From positions 1 to 47,193 of the forward strand of contig NZ_JAIEWN010000046.1 in assembly GCF_019599295.1 (NCBI RefSeq): a stretch of 47,193 nucleotides of DNA, in the 5' to 3' direction. The notes under the pieces were generated by a model that worked only from the letters and a program-made list of their open reading frames with translations, made no database searches and was not told the DNA's origin. Of this stretch, positions 1,640 to 10,446 are shown piece by piece; position 1 is the first letter of the stretch; each line of letters opens with the position of its first letter. Both the position numbers and the translations under genes were made by a program. This DNA is from Oscillochloris sp. ZM17-4. GTDB lineage: Bacteria > Chloroflexota > Chloroflexia > Chloroflexales > Chloroflexaceae.

Positions 1640-1762
1640 AGATACTTCTTTTGAGCCTGGCTGACCAGCACCAGCGTCGCATCAATCGTGCCATCGCTGC
1701 CGTGGTCGATGTGCAGCGTGATCGCCCCGCTGCCGTCCCACGCGCGATAGTTAACCGTGTCG
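1640..1762 (-). pseudogene. C-terminal remnant of an exported/repeat-type protein
   Basis: Reading the minus strand down from about 1762 gives a coherent peptide containing VNYRAWDGSGAITLHIDHG and then DGTIDATLVLVSQAQ. An in-frame stop lies just upstream and no start codon or RBS is visible. The Gly/Asp-rich beta-strand pattern resembles C-terminal repeats of secreted Chloroflexota proteins (recognised by pattern only). It fills most of the gap between the truncated kinase and the next gene. Best read as a decayed gene fragment. Confidence 0.4.
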
Positions 1763-1809
1763 TATCATGGCAGCAGGCAGCCGTACCCTGTCTGTTAGGA
1801 CACCGAGCC

Positions 1810-2808
1810 ATGAACCGAGCGACCGTTGAGCTTCAGCCCGTCACCGATGCCACGTTCAGCGACCTGAACGAGAATCTGGTGCGCGAACATATCACCACGG
1901 CCGTGCGGCGTCGCGCCTACAAGGACTCGACCGACCCGCGCACCTACCTGCTACAGCACCACTGCCTCGTCGAGGTGGGCGAGCAGCTCATCCCCACCGT
2001 GCTCGGCATCCTGACCTTCGCCCGCGACCCTAACCTCTGGCTACCCCATGCCGGCATCGACGTGATTCAGTTCGCCAGCCCGCTGCCGAACTCGACGAAG
2101 ATGCTGCTCTCGCGACAGGTGCGCGGCGATGTGGTGAGCCTGATCGACCAGGCGGCCGAGCTGCTCTGGGCGCGCACCGAGCACCGGATCACCCTGCGCG
2201 GCACCCGCAGGGCCGAGCTCGACGCCTACCCGCTGGTCGTACTCCGCGAGCTTACGGCAAATGCGGTGCTGCACCGCGACTGGGGCATCACCGGCTCGCG
2301 CATTCGCATCCAGATCTTCCCCGACCGGATCGAGTGGATCAGCCCCGGAGGGTTTCCGGGCCGGCGCAAGACCATATCGTTCGAGACGCTCCTCAACGAG
2401 CACCAGCTGCGCAACCACTACCTGGCCCAGCTGCTCTACCTCTCTGAGCGGCTAGAGGCATTCGGGCTCGGCTACGACTCGGTGGCTGAGGCCATGCGCG
2501 ATGCGCCCCGCACGCCTGTTGTGACAAGCAGGCCCGAGCAGTTCAGCGTCTGCGTCTGGGGGAAAGACCTCCCTGGGGAACATCGCGTGATCACTCCGAT
2601 CAAGATGAGCGAGCGGCAGAAGAGCATCCTTAGCCTCCTCGCCAACCCCGCCACGCAGACAGTGCAGTCCTTGGCCGAAGCCCTCGAGGAGACACCGCGC
2701 ACCATCCAGCGCGACCTCCGCGGCCTCCTAGAGGCTGGCATGATCATCGCAGAGGGACATACGCGGAGTCGGCGCTATCGCGTCACGCGCGACCCGAACA
2801 ACGCGTAG
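1810..2808 (+). CDS. RecG-like ATP-binding regulator (HATPase_c_4) with C-terminal HTH
   Basis: A 332-aa protein. The ATG at 1810 is preceded by TAGGA about 9 nt upstream and is preferred over an in-frame upstream start at 1651. The N-terminal part (DLNENLVREHI...PTVLGILTFARDP) matches the middle segment of the AlbA_2/'divergent AAA' regulator family. It is followed by the family's ATPase signature ELTANAVLHRDW and by IRIQIFPDRIEWISPGGFP. The C-terminal 65 residues (MSERQKSILSLLANPATQ...EETPRTIQRDLRGLLEAGMI) form a winged-helix DNA-binding domain. The usual N-terminal AlbA_2 domain is missing, so the protein is either a short form or N-terminally trimmed. Such proteins are usually annotated as ATP-dependent DNA helicase RecG-related or transcriptional regulators. 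Substrate and target are unknown. Confidence 0.72.
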   Translation: MNRATVELQPVTDATFSDLNENLVREHITTAVRRRAYKDSTDPRTYLLQHHCLVEVGEQLIPTVLGILTFARDPNLWLPHAGIDVIQFASPLPNSTKMLLSRQVRGDVVSLIDQAAELLWARTEHRITLRGTRRAELDAYPLVVLRELTANAVLHRDWGITGSRIRIQIFPDRIEWISPGGFPGRRKTISFETLLNEHQLRNHYLAQLLYLSERLEAFGLGYDSVAEAMRDAPRTPVVTSRPEQFSVCVWGKDLPGEHRVITPIKMSERQKSILSLLANPATQTVQSLAEALEETPRTIQRDLRGLLEAGMIIAEGHTRSRRYRVTRDPNNA

Positions 2809-3184: not shown

Positions 3185-3265
3185 TATGCGCTAAAGGGTG
3201 ATGTAGCGGAAGGGTCTCACCCTCCGCAAATGCCCCATCCGCCCGATCCACCTTGATAAGAAAAA

Positions 3266-3301
3266 GGCTGGGCCGCGCAGCGTCAACTGCACGGCCCAGC
3301 C
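3266..3301 (-). terminator. Intrinsic terminator on the minus strand
   Basis: GGCTGGGCCG (3266-3275) pairs with CGGCCCAGCC (3292-3301), with an additional GCAG/CTGC stem in the loop. On the minus strand it is followed by TTTTTCTTATC (3265-3255). On the plus strand it is followed by A residues, so it is directional. There is no minus-strand protein gene for it to terminate, which supports the antisense RNA above. Confidence 0.65.
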
Positions 3302-3390
3302 AAAAAGGACAAGGAAGGAAGACCAGACTACGAGCGCCCGTCTCGGATTCCCAACCATTCGAGCACTCGTGGAACCTCTCACATCTGTAA

Positions 3391-3414
3391 GGCAATGGCA
3401 ATGGCAATGGCAAT
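3391..3414 (+). repeat. (GGCAAT)4 hexanucleotide tandem repeat in the rep leader
   Basis: Four exact tandem copies of GGCAAT, followed by an AGAGAT/AGAGAG purine tract. As RNA, each copy can pair with GUUGCC, which occurs downstream at 3435-3440 and again at 3498-3503 beside the ribosome binding site. It could be a simple slipped repeat or part of a leader-folding switch. Confidence 0.7.
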
Positions 3415-3434
3415 AGAGATAGAGAGAGAATTCT

Positions 3435-3532: not shown

Positions 3533-4948
3533 ATGTCTGTAGCAGCCTACACGCCACAAACACCTCAGCGAGAATCTCGCGTCGCCGCCGACTCGCCGGC
3601 GACCTATGTTCCGCTGCCGCGCCGCCTGATGGAAGATCTGCGCAACGCACCCGTCGCCCTTGGCGCGTATGCGCTGCTGGCGCGCCGCTACCAGATCAGC
3701 GCCGCGCCAACCCCGCTCTCGCCGGGCGATCTTCAGCTCTACGACCCCGCCCTCAGCTACGGCGCGGCGCGGCGCGCGCTCGACCGCCTCGTCGACACCG
3801 GCTACGCAGTTGTCACCGACAGCTCCGGTCGTAAAACCAGCTATCTGCCCAGCTGGGGGAAAGTGGACGCCGCCCCGCGCCCATGGGATCGTACGGTGCC
3901 GGGCTGGGGGCGGCCTCGTCACATCGCCGCCGTCCGCCTTGACGACCGCCTGCTCGATGTCTGTATGGGACGCCTGCGCCCCCACCCAGACCACCCAGCC
4001 GTGATCGAGCGCTATGTCGCCGCCCCGCTCATCAGCCTCCGCACCATCGGGACCTATGCCCTGGCCCTTGCGGGCATTCCCATCCGCAGCACCACACTTG
4101 CCACCCTCGGCCTGTGCGATGCGACGGGACGGCCACTCCCGCTCCCCGATGACGCCACCATCCTTGCTGCCGCATCCCAACGCGCGGCGACCGATGCCGC
4201 CAGCGGCCTCACCCCCGCTGGCTGGCAGCACGCAGGCTTCACATTGCGCACCCCGGCACCTCCAAGGGGCCAAGCACTTTTTTTCGCGCCCGACGGGGGG
4301 AGCATGTTCGAGGGGGAGATCGGTCACCTGTCCGGGGACATGATCGGGGACATGATCGGGGACATGATCGGCATGTCCTGTAGTGATGAGATCGAGAATA
4401 GCCGACTAGAATGCGTCAAAACACCTCCCATCGAGCCGCCCGCGAGATCACATGGATCTACAGAATCAGACGGAGCTAACCTAACCACCACCACCCAGCC
4501 AGACACGCGTGCAGCAACAGCCGTAGATGGTGGTGGTGGAGAAATACGTACATCAGAGCCCCGGCCCGATCAGCCGCCGCCGCAGAACGAGAGCGTACGT
4601 CTGCTGCGCGCCATCGGCGTACGCGCCGACGTCGCCGCCACATTTGCGAACCGACCAGGTGATCACATCCACAACGTGATTGCCAAGGCGCGCGCACAGC
4701 AGGGCGTGCGCGACCTCGCCGCGTGGGTCGTCAGTGCGCTTCGTGCGCTCCCCGCCGCCGAGGAGATCATGCCCCCTCCCCCGAAAGTCTCCGAGCGGGC
4801 GATCCTCTTCCACTCAGGCATCTCTGGCTATGACCGCCAGCGCTGGCTGGCCATCTTCCGCAGCGCCGACCTCGCAGATCGTCCGGCCATCCTCGCCCGC
4901 TTCCATGCGCAGCACCCCGAAGAGGAATCGCATGTCAATACCGCCTAG
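3533..4948 (+). CDS. Probable plasmid replication initiator (winged-helix protein)
   Basis: A 471-aa protein starting at an ATG with AGGAG 8 nt upstream. The N-terminal 110 residues (TYVPLPRRLMEDLRNAPVAL...YGAARRALDRLVDTGYAVV) look like the winged-helix fold of plasmid/phage initiators and DnaD-like primosome proteins. The middle is Ala/Pro-rich. Residues about 268-280 contain a GDMI-GDMI-GDMI repeat encoded by a 12-bp DNA repeat. A linker (about 290-355) rich in Pro, Thr and Gly leads to a helical C-terminal domain (VRLLRAIGVRADVAATF...VRDLAAWVVSALRAL) like those of loader/initiator proteins. Its position after iterons and a controlled leader, and its 17-nt overlap with dnaB, argue for an initiator that recruits the helicase. 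No family was recognised with certainty; the role is inferred from context. Confidence 0.55.
   Translation: MSVAAYTPQTPQRESRVAADSPATYVPLPRRLMEDLRNAPVALGAYALLARRYQISAAPTPLSPGDLQLYDPALSYGAARRALDRLVDTGYAVVTDSSGRKTSYLPSWGKVDAAPRPWDRTVPGWGRPRHIAAVRLDDRLLDVCMGRLRPHPDHPAVIERYVAAPLISLRTIGTYALALAGIPIRSTTLATLGLCDATGRPLPLPDDATILAAASQRAATDAASGLTPAGWQHAGFTLRTPAPPRGQALFFAPDGGSMFEGEIGHLSGDMIGDMIGDMIGMSCSDEIENSRLECVKTPPIEPPARSHGSTESDGANLTTTTQPDTRAATAVDGGGGEIRTSEPRPDQPPPQNESVRLLRAIGVRADVAATFANRPGDHIHNVIAKARAQQGVRDLAAWVVSALRALPAAEEIMPPPPKVSERAILFHSGISGYDRQRWLAIFRSADLADRPAILARFHAQHPEEESHVNTA
4334..4369 (+). repeat. Three tandem 12-bp repeats inside the initiator gene
   Basis: GGGGACATGATC is repeated three times exactly and in frame, encoding repeated GDMI. 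It is followed by GGCATGTCC, an inverted half of the same GGACAT core. The lack of synonymous change between copies suggests recent slippage or selection on the DNA, for example as a protein-binding array. Confidence 0.7.
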
Positions 4949-6263
4949 CCCGCCCTTCGATCTCGCCGCCGAGCGTGCGACACTAGGGGCCATCCTCCTG
5001 GAGCGTGATGCCATTGTCGTTGTCGCCTCGTTCCTAACCCCGGCGCACTTTTACCTGGAGCGGCACGCCCAGATCTTTCAGGCCATGCTGACTTGCTACC
5101 AGCGGCGTGAGCCCCCCGATCTCACGACAGTCGCCGCCGAGCTGCGGCGGCAGGAGCAGCTTGAGCTCGTGGGCGGCATGTCCGCGATTGGCGAGCTTGC
5201 GGCGGAGGTTCCGACGGCGGTGCATATCGAGTACTACGCCCGCATCATCGAGCGCACCGCCGTCGGTCGAGCGCTGATCGAGGCCGCCGGGCAGATCGCG
5301 GGCCTGGGCTACGACGACAGCCGCCCGATCGAGGATCGCTTAGACGCGGCGGCTCAGCATATCTACCAGCTGGCTGCAAAGCGCCAGATCGGCCAGGACT
5401 TTGTCGCGCTCTCCCAGATTGTCAGCGAGTACTTTGATACGATCCAGGATACCGCTGACGAAGGCGATCTGCTCGGGCTGGGCACGGGTTACCCAGATCT
5501 GGACATCATCAGCCAGGGGATGAAGCCGGGCGAGCTGGTGGTGCTTGCGGCCCGCCCTGGGGTGGGTAAGACCGCAATGGCGCTCTGTATCGCCCGCTAT
5601 GTGGCCCTACGCGGGCACCGGGTCGGCATCTTTTCAATGGAGATGGATCGTGAGCTTCTGGCGCAGCGGCTCGTGGCGATGGAGCTGGGGCTCGCCACGC
5701 CGCATGCGCTGCGGCTGCTGCGGCGTGGCGACCAGACGGCGATCAACGCGCTGGCGCGGGTGTCTGAGCTACCGATCCATATTGACCACACGCCTTCGCT
5801 GAACGTCATGGCCATCCGTGATCGGGCGCGGCGCCTGTCCAGCGAGCGGCGGATAGACCTCTGGATTGTTGACTACCTCCAGCTGGCCCAGGGGCCGAGC
5901 GAGCGCGACGATGAGGTGCGGCGGATCACGGCGGTCTCGCAGGGGCTGACCAGCCTCGCCCGCGAGCTGCGCACGCCGGTGCTGGCGCTCTCGCAGCTCT
6001 CGCGAGCGGTAGAGGGGCGCGCGGAGCACATCCCCATGCTCTCCGACCTGCGGGGCTCGGGTAGCATTGAGCAGGATGCCTCACAGGTCTGGTTCATCTA
6101 CCGGGACGAGCTGTATAACCGCCAGACGGAGTATCCCGGTATGGCCGAGATCCACGTGGCGAAGCATCGCAACGGAGAGACGGGGATGGCAACGCTGCGC
6201 TTTGATCGTGCGACCACCCAGTTTCGTAGCCTGAGCAGCCGCCAGATATCGTCCGTACGCTGA
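4932..6263 (+). CDS. dnaB: Replicative DNA helicase DnaB
   Basis: A 443-aa hexameric replicative helicase, close to the usual DnaB length. The start at ATG 4932 (AGAGGA upstream) gives the classic N-terminus, FDLAAERATLGAILLERDAI. The primase-interacting N-terminal domain spans about residues 8-110. The RecA-like domain has Walker A ARPGVGKTAMA, GIFSMEM, a DnaB Walker B region (RIDLWIVDYLQLAQG) and the arginine-bearing end AKHRNGETG. The gene overlaps the initiator by 17 nt, implying co-transcription and coupled translation. A replicon carrying its own helicase beside its initiator fits a large plasmid or phage-plasmid; a chromosomal dnaB normally sits elsewhere. Confidence 0.93.
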   Translation: MSIPPSPPFDLAAERATLGAILLERDAIVVVASFLTPAHFYLERHAQIFQAMLTCYQRREPPDLTTVAAELRRQEQLELVGGMSAIGELAAEVPTAVHIEYYARIIERTAVGRALIEAAGQIAGLGYDDSRPIEDRLDAAAQHIYQLAAKRQIGQDFVALSQIVSEYFDTIQDTADEGDLLGLGTGYPDLDIISQGMKPGELVVLAARPGVGKTAMALCIARYVALRGHRVGIFSMEMDRELLAQRLVAMELGLATPHALRLLRRGDQTAINALARVSELPIHIDHTPSLNVMAIRDRARRLSSERRIDLWIVDYLQLAQGPSERDDEVRRITAVSQGLTSLARELRTPVLALSQLSRAVEGRAEHIPMLSDLRGSGSIEQDASQVWFIYRDELYNRQTEYPGMAEIHVAKHRNGETGMATLRFDRATTQFRSLSSRQISSVR

Positions 6264-6341: not shown

Positions 6342-6363
6342 AGCATCTAAGATAGAGTGGCCT

Positions 6364-6591
6364 ATGCTCACCACACGTCAGGCCGCCGAGCGCCTCGGAG
6401 TCACACAGCGCCAAGTGCGTCGCTTTGTGGTTGCCGGGCAGCTCGTCGCACAGCAGATCGGCGACTACCCCACCGCCCCTTGGGTGATCACCGAGGAGAG
6501 CCTGAATTGCCTGATCGTCGCTCGCACACACGACCCGCCGCGCAAGGGGCGCCGGTCCGATGCCGCCGCTATGGAGAGGAATCGCCAATGA
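6364..6591 (+). CDS. Small excisionase/MerR-like HTH protein
   Basis: 75 aa, starting MLTTRQAAERLGVTQRQVRR. This is the helix-turn-helix signature of the excisionase/MerR-like 'helix-turn-helix domain' family (HTH_17), followed by a short wing (YPTAPWVITEESLNCLI) and a basic tail. The start at 6364 is chosen because the domain begins there and a GAGTGG sequence lies just upstream. Its stop overlaps the parA start in an ATGA arrangement, so the two are translationally coupled. It may be a partition-operon repressor or a centromere-binding adaptor. Confidence 0.75.
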   Translation: MLTTRQAAERLGVTQRQVRRFVVAGQLVAQQIGDYPTAPWVITEESLNCLIVARTHDPPRKGRRSDAAAMERNRQ

Positions 6592-7349
6592 CCGTGCTTG
6601 CCGTTGCGATCCAGAAGGGTGGTACTGGGAAGACGACGACTACGCTCTCGCTCGGCGTGGAGCTCGGGCGTATGGGGCGGCGCGTGCTGCTGATTGACAT
6701 CGACCCGCAGAGTAACCTCACCCAGGCGGTTGGACATGACCCGACCCAGATCGAGCACTCCGTCTATGAGGTGCTGCTCAACCCTACCTACGGGCCGGAA
6801 TTCGCCACGATACCCACGAGCTACGGTGTTGACCTTGTCCCTGCGACTCTGACGCTGGCTGGTGCCGAGCTGACGCTGGCTGGACGTTTTGGGCGCGAGC
6901 TGTTGCTCCGCACAGCGCTCGCCGAGGCCCGCAAGGAGTACGACTACATCCTGATTGACAGCCCGCCGTCGCTCGGGGTCTTCACCGTCAACGCGCTCAC
7001 TGCTGCCGATGCGGTGCTGGTGCCGCTCCAGGCCCACGTCTTCGCCCTCAAGGCAATGCCGCAGCTCGAGGAGACGATCAGCATTGTGCGCCAGCTCAAC
7101 CCGATGCTCTCCATCGGCGGCATCGTGGTGACGATGGTTGACCGTCGAACCAGCGTCAATATGGTGGTCGAAGATACGATTCGCCAGCAGTATGGCGATC
7201 TTGTCTTCCAGACAACCGTCCCCTTCAATGTGAAGCTCGTGGAGGCGCCCGCCACAGGCCAGCCGATTAGCATCTACGCTGGCGATAGCAGCGGGGCGCG
7301 GGCCTACCGCGATCTGGCGCAGGAGGTTGTCGCCCGCTATGAGCAGTAA
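6588..7349 (+). CDS. parA: ParA-family partition ATPase
   Basis: 253 aa with the deviant Walker A KGGTGKTTTT near the N-terminus (about residues 10-19), the A' motif RVLLIDIDPQSNLT, and the Walker B region YDYILIDSPPSLG. It has the compact length of Soj-like or type Ib ParA proteins and no N-terminal HTH; DNA binding is instead supplied by the small coupled protein before it. ParA ATPases position plasmids or nucleoids with a centromere-binding partner. The next gene starts inside its 3' end, forming a three-gene partition operon. Confidence 0.92.
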   Translation: MTVLAVAIQKGGTGKTTTTLSLGVELGRMGRRVLLIDIDPQSNLTQAVGHDPTQIEHSVYEVLLNPTYGPEFATIPTSYGVDLVPATLTLAGAELTLAGRFGRELLLRTALAEARKEYDYILIDSPPSLGVFTVNALTAADAVLVPLQAHVFALKAMPQLEETISIVRQLNPMLSIGGIVVTMVDRRTSVNMVVEDTIRQQYGDLVFQTTVPFNVKLVEAPATGQPISIYAGDSSGARAYRDLAQEVVARYEQ

Positions 7350-8181
7350 TAAGAGTCGCCTCAAGGGGATCCTCGCTGGCGGCGAGCCTGAGCCTCCGGC
7401 AAAGCCTATCCAGAAGGGCGTGCCCTTTCAGGTCTCGACCGTTGTCACAGCGGCAGAGCCAGATTTCCAAGGATCGATAGGTGAGCTGAGCGTGCCGCTC
7501 CAGGACATCGCACGCCGGTATGTGGGTGCCCGTCGTCGAAGTGGCGAGGCGCTGTTGGATGCCGCACGTTGGTTGACCGAGGCGCGCAACACCGCCGTAC
7601 ATGGCGAGTGGCAGATCTTTCTCGATGCCACCGTGACGAGCGCGGACAGCGCTGAGCGGTTGCTGAACATCCATAGTATGGCGATGCAGAACCCGCAGTT
7701 CGCTGACGCGGTTACGCGCAACTGGTTGGGTCAGTCGGCCGCCGCGCTGCTCGCCCGACCCTCCACGCCACCTGATGTTGTCGCCGACGTGCTCGGCCAG
7801 GCGGCGGCCCCGAGCGTCGAGGATGTGCGTGGTGCGATCGCACGATCACGCGGATCGCGCAGGGGTAAGGGGGCGGGGCAAAATCCGCAAATTGCGGATT
7901 TTGCCCCGCCCCAAAATCCGCAATTTGCGGATTTTGCGAGCCGCGGGGCTGAGCGTCAATCGGAGACAGCCGATACGGGCGAGGCTGCTGCGCGTCTCAG
8001 GGCAGATGACGCAGCGGATCTATCAGCAGCAGATTTGGCGCTTGAGGTGCTGCGCGAGACGACGCGCGCCATTGAGGGCCTTTGGGATCTGGCCCCAAGC
8101 CTCGCCGGCTCCCAGGAGGGCCGCTCGCTGATCGAGCGGATGAAGCTGGCGCTTCATGAGCTTGAGGATCGCGTGCTGTAG
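7339..8181 (+). CDS. DUF3102-like protein, probable ParB-equivalent partner of ParA
   Basis: 280 aa. The ATG at 7339 overlaps parA by 11 nt, with AGGAGG at 7321-7326; an in-frame TTG at 7327 is a weaker choice. No ParB N-terminal nuclease-like motif is present. Residues about 60-115 (RRSGEALLDAARWLTEARN...VHGEWQIFLD...SAERLLNI) resemble the DUF3102 pattern seen in plasmid and phage proteins. QNPQFAD-type peptides occur at about residues 117, 181 and 192; the last two are encoded by large DNA palindromes. The C-terminal 80 residues are acidic and helical. Position directly after parA suggests a centromere-binding or adaptor role. Function is inferred from context. Confidence 0.55.
   Translation: MSSNKSRLKGILAGGEPEPPAKPIQKGVPFQVSTVVTAAEPDFQGSIGELSVPLQDIARRYVGARRRSGEALLDAARWLTEARNTAVHGEWQIFLDATVTSADSAERLLNIHSMAMQNPQFADAVTRNWLGQSAAALLARPSTPPDVVADVLGQAAAPSVEDVRGAIARSRGSRRGKGAGQNPQIADFAPPQNPQFADFASRGAERQSETADTGEAAARLRADDAADLSAADLALEVLRETTRAIEGLWDLAPSLAGSQEGRSLIERMKLALHELEDRVL
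7870..7936. repeat. Two adjacent palindromes, candidate centromere (parS-like) site
   Basis: A perfect inverted repeat with 21-bp arms around one base (7870-7890 and 7892-7912, centre 7891) is followed at once by a second with 12-bp arms (7912-7923 and 7925-7936, centre 7924). The shared 23-bp cores are AAAATCCGCAA-N-TTGCGGATTTT and are exact reverse complements of each other. They lie in frame inside the partner gene of parA. They could be a partition site, an autoregulatory operator or a palindromic selfish element that entered the reading frame. Confidence 0.75.
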
Positions 8182-8287: not shown

Positions 8288-9160
8288 ATGTCCGTGCCGA
8301 AGCCACATCCCCCGCCCCCAAGCCCGCGGGAGCAGCTACCCATCACGCTGTTTGAGAGCGTTGTACTCGCCGTCCGCGCCGACGACGCACGCATCTACCT
8401 GAGCCTGCGCGACCTCTGTGACGCGCTGGGCCTCGCGGTGAACCCGCAGCGCCGGCGCATCGTCCTTGATGAGTCGCTCCTTCTGGTGCAGTTTCGGGTG
8501 CTCAGCGGCGGGCAGTTCCGCGCCATCGACTTCTTGCTGCTAGAGGATGTCTCTGTCTGGCTGCTGAGCGTGCAGCGGCGCCGCGTTACGGAAAAGGCCC
8601 AGGAGCGATTCTCCTACGTGAAGGCCTACCTCGTCACGGCGGTCCAGCGCGCCTTCGCAGAGCTCACGGGACTACCTGCCACCTCAAGTAGCGACATCGA
8701 AGATCTCGGCGAGCTGGATCGCATCGATAGGGCGTTTACCCAGATCACTGAGCTGACGCGCCGCCAGGATGTCATTGAGCAGAGCCAGGATCGCGCACGT
8801 GGCGCCTACCGCGATCTGCGCACGATCCTCAGCGATCTCCGTGATCGGATGCGGGCGCTAGAGCAGCGGCTCGAATCAACGCTCAGCCCGTCCCAGCGGG
8901 GGACAATCTATCACATGGTGCAGCGCTGGGGGACGGCCCGCGCCGAGCATGGGAAGAGCCTCGCGCCCGGCGTTGCGATCCGCAAGAGCTGGTCAGAGCT
9001 CAACGAGGCATTCAACGTCGGCACCTACACGGATCTGCCGGCAGCCCGTTATGATGAGATTGTGGGCTATATTAAGGACCAGTACCGCGCCGTGACGGGG
9101 CGCGATCTGGAGGCGGTTGAGCAGGCCGGCCTTGAGATGGGGGGCGGCGATGGGAGATGA
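8288..9160 (+). CDS. Phage antirepressor-like protein (P22_AR_N + ORF6C)
   Basis: 290 aa, ATG preceded by GAGGAG. After a Pro-rich start, residues about 17-125 (ITLFESVVLAVRADDARIYL, LRDLCDALGLAVNPQRRRI, VSVWLLSVQ) match the P22_AR_N antirepressor domain. A coiled coil runs from about 150 to 200. The C-terminal part (LSPSQRGTIYHMVQRW, WSELNEAFNVGTYTDLPAARYDEIVGYI) resembles the ORF6C domain. In phages such proteins block repressors; on plasmids they are probably regulators of replication or phage functions. Separated from the partition genes by the large inverted repeat, it probably has its own expression control. Confidence 0.78.
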   Translation: MSVPKPHPPPPSPREQLPITLFESVVLAVRADDARIYLSLRDLCDALGLAVNPQRRRIVLDESLLLVQFRVLSGGQFRAIDFLLLEDVSVWLLSVQRRRVTEKAQERFSYVKAYLVTAVQRAFAELTGLPATSSSDIEDLGELDRIDRAFTQITELTRRQDVIEQSQDRARGAYRDLRTILSDLRDRMRALEQRLESTLSPSQRGTIYHMVQRWGTARAEHGKSLAPGVAIRKSWSELNEAFNVGTYTDLPAARYDEIVGYIKDQYRAVTGRDLEAVEQAGLEMGGGDGR

Positions 9161-9324
9161 GCGACTCGAGGCGCGGGTAGGCCGCAGGCTGCGCGAGGCG
9201 CGGAGCGGCGCCCGCCGCCCGTGACACCAGGCGCATCCGGCGGCCCGCATGACCTGCCCACCGCAACGTCGTGACCGGTGCACGAATGTGTCTTGATAAC
9301 TTGAGCCACTATAAAGAGGGCACG

Positions 9325-10377
9325 ATGACTGATTCACCGATAGAACACCCGCTGGGGCAACCCGACACGAACACAGACCAGATTCTCGGCGAGACGACGG
9401 GTGATGTCGTGGTGTTTCACCGCACCCACGGATTCATTCGCGCCCCCGGCTTCGGCTCGGTCTTCGTCCACGTCTCTAACCTTGAGGAGGGGCGTGAGCG
9501 GCTGGAGCCAGGACAGCGCGTCCACGTGCGTATCAGGAAGGGGAGACGCGGCCGCTATGCTGATCAGGTGCGGGTGCTCCACGAGGGCTCAACTGAGATG
9601 CCATCGGCACCAACCACGCCGCCCGCCAGCCCAATGCAAGATATCGTGCTCACCATCGCCAGGCGCCTCGGCGAGCGCGAGTCGGAGCCGATCAACCTGA
9701 TCCGCCGGCTAGTTAAACACCTCGGCCCGGATGTGGCGTGGACGGTCCTCGATGAGACGGAGCAGCTTGAGGCGCAGGGCGGCATGCTCCTCCCTAATAA
9801 GTCTCGCCGCCGGACACCTGGCGGTGTGTTCTTCGCTCTAGCCAGAGATCGGCTCACCCCTGAAGATCGGGCAAATCTCTTCCCGAAGAAGCCATGGAAG
9901 GTGCGGCGCACACGGCCCGCCAAGGAACAGACAGAGCAGCCACAGCAGCCGCAGCCTGCGCCGCAGCCCATCACGTGGGAAATGCGCGGGCCACTGATCG
10001 ATGAGGCACGAGTAGGACAAGGAAGGGCGACAACAGTGAAAGTAACGGTTATTGGCCGGCCAGAGTCTATAGTCGAGCGTGGCAACACGGTGATTCTTAT
10101 GCTCACCCACCGTGGCCCGCTGCCATCGCTGCCTAAAGGCGTCCCCACCCCGGCGGAGGTGCCGACAACAAGCTACGTCGTGTATGTGGCAGCCAAGCAG
10201 TGGCGCGGGGTGGCCGAGCCTATCAAGGATCCGGAGGACAGCTTGATCATTGAAGGGACACAGGTCTGGGACGCCGAGCAGCAGGTGATCGCGGTCTACA
10301 CCACAAAGATCGGGACGAAGCTCATGCAGCGCGCCAAGCGGCCCGCTCCGCCCGCCGAGCCGCCGCCGCAATCGTAG
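9325..10377 (+). CDS. Cold-shock domain + PHAX RNA-binding domain protein
   Basis: 350 aa; the ATG at 9325 follows AAAGAGGG and fits the domain start better than an upstream in-frame start at 9271. Residues 22-86 are a cold-shock OB fold with RNP-like motifs (THGFIRAPGFGSVFVHVSNL). Residues about 104-178 match the PHAX RNA-binding domain, known in the eukaryotic snRNA export adaptor: helices IARRLGERESEPINLIRRLV, ...LEAQGGM and the hallmark SRRRTPGGVFFALAR. A basic Pro/Gln linker leads to a C-terminal beta-rich domain (about 225-335; TVKVTVIGRPESIVERGNTV) of unknown family. Two RNA/ssDNA-binding modules suggest a nucleic-acid chaperone or RNA-processing factor. Domain calls are by motif; function is unknown. 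Confidence 0.78.
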   Translation: MTDSPIEHPLGQPDTNTDQILGETTGDVVVFHRTHGFIRAPGFGSVFVHVSNLEEGRERLEPGQRVHVRIRKGRRGRYADQVRVLHEGSTEMPSAPTTPPASPMQDIVLTIARRLGERESEPINLIRRLVKHLGPDVAWTVLDETEQLEAQGGMLLPNKSRRRTPGGVFFALARDRLTPEDRANLFPKKPWKVRRTRPAKEQTEQPQQPQPAPQPITWEMRGPLIDEARVGQGRATTVKVTVIGRPESIVERGNTVILMLTHRGPLPSLPKGVPTPAEVPTTSYVVYVAAKQWRGVAEPIKDPEDSLIIEGTQVWDAEQQVIAVYTTKIGTKLMQRAKRPAPPAEPPPQS

Positions 10378-10398: not shown

Positions 10399-10446
10399 CT
10401 ACGCACAAGGAGGGGCGGCTCACGAGCCGCCCCTCCTTGTGCGTAG
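10399..10446. terminator. 22-bp perfect hairpin after the PHAX gene
   Basis: Arms 10399-10420 and 10425-10446 pair exactly around CACG, 21 bp after the stop codon. No U-tract follows, but its position between the plus-strand PHAX gene and the convergent resolvase genes makes a bidirectional terminator the likely role. Confidence 0.6.

Follow-up and report, generated by a model that had tools for sequence, protein, structure and literature searches.

A gene on a contig of plasmid-like gene content from Oscillochloris sp. ZM17-4 encodes a basic protein in which a cold-shock domain (CSD), a PHAX RNA-binding domain and a predicted OB fold stand in tandem, so that three modules of nucleic-acid-binding fold adjoin one another in a chain of 350 residues. 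On balance, we favour a multi-module single-stranded-nucleic-acid-binding protein of a Chloroflexota PHAX-OB family, most likely an RNA-binding or RNA-chaperone factor. Throughout, the window is the whole 47,193-nt stretch of DNA that was analysed. The features of the gene are as follows.

9316–9320, plus strand: Shine-Dalgarno-like GAGGG, read from sequence, 4 nt before ATG 9325
9325–10377, plus strand: gene of the CSD-PHAX-OB protein, 350 aa, pI 9.7
9391–9594, plus strand: cold-shock domain, residues 23–90 (Pfam CSD, fold match)
9631–9888, plus strand: PHAX RNA-binding domain, helical, residues 103–188 (Pfam, fold match)
9889–9972, plus strand: basic, Q/P-rich linker of low pLDDT, residues 189–216
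9973–10344, plus strand: C-terminal OB fold, residues 217–340 (predicted model; motif kept in 43 sequences)
10399–10446, no strand assigned: inverted repeat of two perfectly matched 23-nt arms 2 nt apart, beginning 22 nt past the stop codon, terminator-like with no T run

Counted from its GTG, the open reading frame spans 9271–10377; translation probably begins at the ATG at 9325, as an earlier note made from the letters of this DNA had also proposed. The whole frame is kept in close relatives, and dN/dS (NG86) is ~0.30 against L066 and ~0.25 against L050, the nearest of them, indicating purifying selection. Given this conservation and a ratio of about 0.25–0.3, we conclude that 9325–10377 is a real gene. 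Basic character is common to the full protein and its modules.

The earlier note had described a CSD fused to a PHAX domain carrying the motif SRRRTPGGVFF, and profile searches and structure prediction both agree with that description. The PHAX_RNA-bd model (PF10258) matched residues 109–187 with 64 bits against a cut-off of 25 (1.3e-17; model positions 3–80 of 84), the CSD model (PF00313) matched residues 25–84 with 32.1 bits against a cut-off of 27 (1.1e-7), and the motif lies at residues 160–170. In a phmmer search of the PDB, human PHAX (2xc7, E 1.8e-8) came first, followed by the apicomplexan domain from Cryptosporidium (2w4s, E 1.1e-4) and then by cold-shock proteins. The full-length AlphaFold2 model, built from a 43-sequence alignment, had a mean pLDDT of 89.3 and supported both domains. 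Its PHAX part superimposed on 2w4s with Z 12.8 and rmsd 1.7 over 81 residues, and on the human complex of this domain with single-stranded RNA (2xc7) with Z 9.2 and rmsd 6.2 over 99 residues. Its CSD gave Z 10.9 to the YBX1 CSD and Z 10.0 to CspA.

Within the RRRTPGG loop of the PHAX domain, which human PHAX has in common with the bacterial protein, the first R, the T and both Gs are invariant in 48 bacterial sequences, and the longer stretch SRRRTPGGVF is identical to the human one; the invariant residues and the human counterpart of the loop together speak for a binding surface that has been kept. The resemblance ends at the domain. Only human residues 230–296 align, and the window protein has no match to the CBC- and CRM1-binding export region of human PHAX, whose CBC-binding helix and NES region comprise residues 112–162 (PMC12350170). 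The fold is that of the eukaryotic domain, whereas the protein is bacterial, is fused to a CSD and an OB fold, and is not a nuclear export factor. The CSD has the fold of bacterial CspA and CspB (structurally aligned with CspA, it is 36% identical), but here it is a module of a larger protein, and its RNP motifs, read from the sequence, are partly degenerate: VFVHV is present, THGFI stands in place of the KGFGFI of RNP1, and GFI and VFVH are what is left of RNP1 and RNP2. The CSD may therefore no longer bind RNA.

The C-terminal domain had been noted as beta-rich and unassigned; the beta-rich character stands, and an assignment can now be offered. Modelled alone, the domain reached a pLDDT of 94.7, with five main strands and a helix between strands 3 and 4. 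Its nearest structures were SSBb (Z 8.1) and PriB with ssDNA (Z 7.8), and the other matches listed included aminoacyl-tRNA synthetase OB domains and RPA, nearly all of them OB folds. Although Z values near 8 are modest, matches and topology agree, and the predicted model supports an OB fold. OB folds bind DNA, RNA or protein. The barrel, with its helix between strands 3 and 4, is that of SSB and PriB, but the domain has no detectable sequence similarity to them: Pfam scans gave no SSB (PF00436) hit and hhalign a probability of 2.2%, so that SSB membership has no support by sequence. It has instead its own family motif, VKxTLIGRPG...LPKGxPxP...KQWxxVxEA...DxLIxEG in 43 sequences, with an invariant LPKGxPxP loop and a KQW motif, and it is tied to PHAX. 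Sequence searches of the PDB with the domain profile hit designed TIM barrels through short, repeated matches, and these were set aside as not meaningful.

A family profile run against 84,980 species genomes found 98 relatives, and nearly all of the best 80 of these 98 came from Chloroflexota; viral contigs added four more. The PHAX domain is followed by the OB domain in 72 of the 83 PHAX proteins compared (one of the 72 has two OB domains and one has two PHAX domains). Among 400 genomes sampled from the phylum, the distribution was sporadic: 21 had PHAX and 16 had the OB domain, and matches to the OB domain without PHAX were few and mostly partial. What differs is the N-terminus, which carries a CSD, up to four RRMs, or no module at all. 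RRMs precede PHAX in L092 (four of them), L093, L105 and L109, placing an RNA-binding module just where the window protein has its CSD; an OB domain follows in L092 and L093, whereas L105 and L109 have none. A CSD occurs in 6 of 43 aligned members, and in the tree the CSD carriers that were compared group together in a single supported clade of Oscillochloridaceae and kin; two members with no detected CSD belong to it as well. By sequence comparison, then, the PHAX-OB pair is a phylum-wide Chloroflexota family, to which a CSD has been added in that one lineage. Relatives of the same type appear in records labelled Chromatiales (L052), Nitrosomonas (L098), Acidobacteria (L073) and Bacteroidetes (L079); these records may be mis-binned, and L052 has neighbours in common with Anaerolineae loci.

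Because three nucleic-acid-binding folds lie side by side, and because CSD and RRM are swapped in relatives, a role in binding single-stranded RNA is the most economical one; the replacement of the CSD by an RRM itself points to RNA. From homology we infer that the CSD-PHAX-OB protein binds RNA. The conserved RRRTPGG loop of the PHAX domain would grip single-stranded RNA, and adjoining unpaired stretches would be held by the CSD and the OB fold, the full set of three binding modules having presumably arisen when a CSD was joined to the N-terminus of PHAX-OB in this lineage. Binding would change the folding, stability or translation of target transcripts, a regulatory outcome that we offer as a guess. 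The likeliest targets might be transcripts of the protein's own replicon, since the PHAX gene comes last after parA, parB and the antirepressor gene; this, too, is a guess, made from gene order. The genes in question are these.

3533–4948, plus strand: P0002, candidate replication initiator, with no family hit
4680–6263, plus strand: DnaB-type replicative helicase
6357–7349, plus strand: ParA ATPase (Pfam), true start probably near 6585
7327–8181, plus strand: gene in the ParB position, weak DUF3102 match only
8288–9160, plus strand: P22_AR_N antirepressor-like gene, directly upstream of the PHAX gene

Replication and partition genes do lie upstream of the PHAX gene, as had been noted. The region had also been called plasmid-like. 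Its gene content fits, and on that basis the contig is a putative plasmid; its ends have no terminal overlap. That P0002 is a replication initiator is a guess from its position; several homologues lie elsewhere in the same genome, relatives occur on two Herpetosiphon plasmids, and in four loci P0002 and a PHAX gene are no more than about 7 kb apart. Elsewhere in the window, 1651–2805 (plus strand) encodes a protein with HATPase_c_4 and HTH regions and weak PADLOC matches.

The gene order of the window recurs in part of the family, on several replicons of Chloroflexales. It is found as such (parA-parB-antirepressor-PHAX) in L047, as parA-parB-PHAX in L055, and as parA-parB-antirepressor near a truncated PHAX in L088; a P22_AR_N family gene is upstream of PHAX in L037, L047, L067 and L087. 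ParA was present in the analysed flanks of 11 PHAX loci against about 1.8 expected from its density in the Oscillochloris genome (1.6 per Mb), with P about 3e-6, a value that overstates independence given that the loci are related. Phage records yielded no close relatives, and plasmid records only one, on Herpetosiphon pHAU01, where a type I CRISPR operon with Cst1, DevR, Cas5 and Cas3 adjoins the PHAX gene Haur_5073 (region L122 9974–19911). Other PHAX loci have varied neighbours, such as a menA-like prenyltransferase, an acylphosphatase (both named from sequence) and metabolic genes; many members, from Anaerolineae and Ktedonobacterales, are away from replication genes. Because so many loci have unrelated neighbours, the link to plasmids holds for certain branches and not for the whole family. 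Most relatives lie on contigs with no recognised plasmid genes and no common neighbour, and a replicon-specific role therefore cannot be general. We regard as unlikely the fuller proposal that the replicon-encoded protein regulates plasmid partition or replication via RNA and that the RNA-binding domain of eukaryotic snRNA export has a relative, or its source, in bacteria.

The earlier note had gone further and suggested a plasmid antisense RNA as one possible target. The element concerned, at 3258–3434 on the minus strand, lies upstream of the P0002 gene and consists of a strong hairpin with a T run behind it; it folds well (z −5.6 on the minus strand) and is possibly a countertranscript or a terminator. 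An Rfam search of the window gave only eukaryotic miRNA models below the gathering score, which we treated as chance. Nothing links the element to the protein, and many family members are away from replication genes, so the suggestion finds no support.

The variety of contexts would suit a protein with a general role in Chloroflexota cells, as an RNA chaperone or a binder of small RNAs, that travels as cargo and is only incidentally near parAB. Fusions to CSD or RRM modules are what one expects of RNA chaperones, and a second copy is present in the same genome on contig C162. The sporadic distribution is unlike that of a core chaperone, however, and the ParA enrichment and the conserved parAB-antirepressor-PHAX order also argue against an incidental neighbourhood; we think this account improbable. 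A little less probable still is a replication accessory, in which the OB fold would bind plasmid ssDNA while PHAX and CSD held primer or R-loop RNA, helping the candidate initiator and DnaB to load at the origin. The likeness of the C-terminal fold to SSBb and ssDNA-bound PriB favours such a role, as do the presence of DnaB, ParA and the candidate initiator in the same block and, in viral contigs L116 and L118, the proximity of PHAX genes to DnaB. Against it, the C-terminal domain lacks sequence similarity to SSB, the genome already encodes four ordinary SSBs, the RRM fusions point to RNA, and most relatives are away from replication genes. A defence or counter-defence RNA binder in phage or plasmid conflict is very unlikely: the antirepressor-like neighbour, the PHAX genes of viral contigs and the CRISPR operon beside the Herpetosiphon copy hint at it, but PADLOC gives only a weak cold-shock model, annotated neighbour clusters contain no recurring defence genes, and the protein has no catalytic domain.

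If the PHAX-OB proteins are RNA binders, as we favour, they are a candidate RNA-chaperone family in Chloroflexota. A survey covering eukaryotes only (PMC3032688) took PHAX to be an innovation of one lineage, confined to animals or opisthokonts. Our literature search, limited to open-licence papers, found no description of bacterial PHAX domains, in line with the earlier remark that they are poorly described, although this is weak evidence of absence. A diverse bacterial family in which PHAX is joined to CSD, RRM or OB modules makes the origin of the domain, and its ancestral RNA-binding role, testable. Its members take several further forms. The protein at L092 2331–4169 combines its four RRMs with PHAX and OB domains, and a 616-residue relative at L028 478–2325 has an N-terminus that reads as three CSD-like repeats, unscored by Pfam, ahead of PHAX-OB. 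PHAX proteins at L104 1468–2799 and L112 9773–11089, in records labelled Myxococcales and Polyangiaceae, have no OB domain and carry long low-complexity regions after the PHAX domain. A stand-alone short type of about 115 residues has a basic N-terminus.
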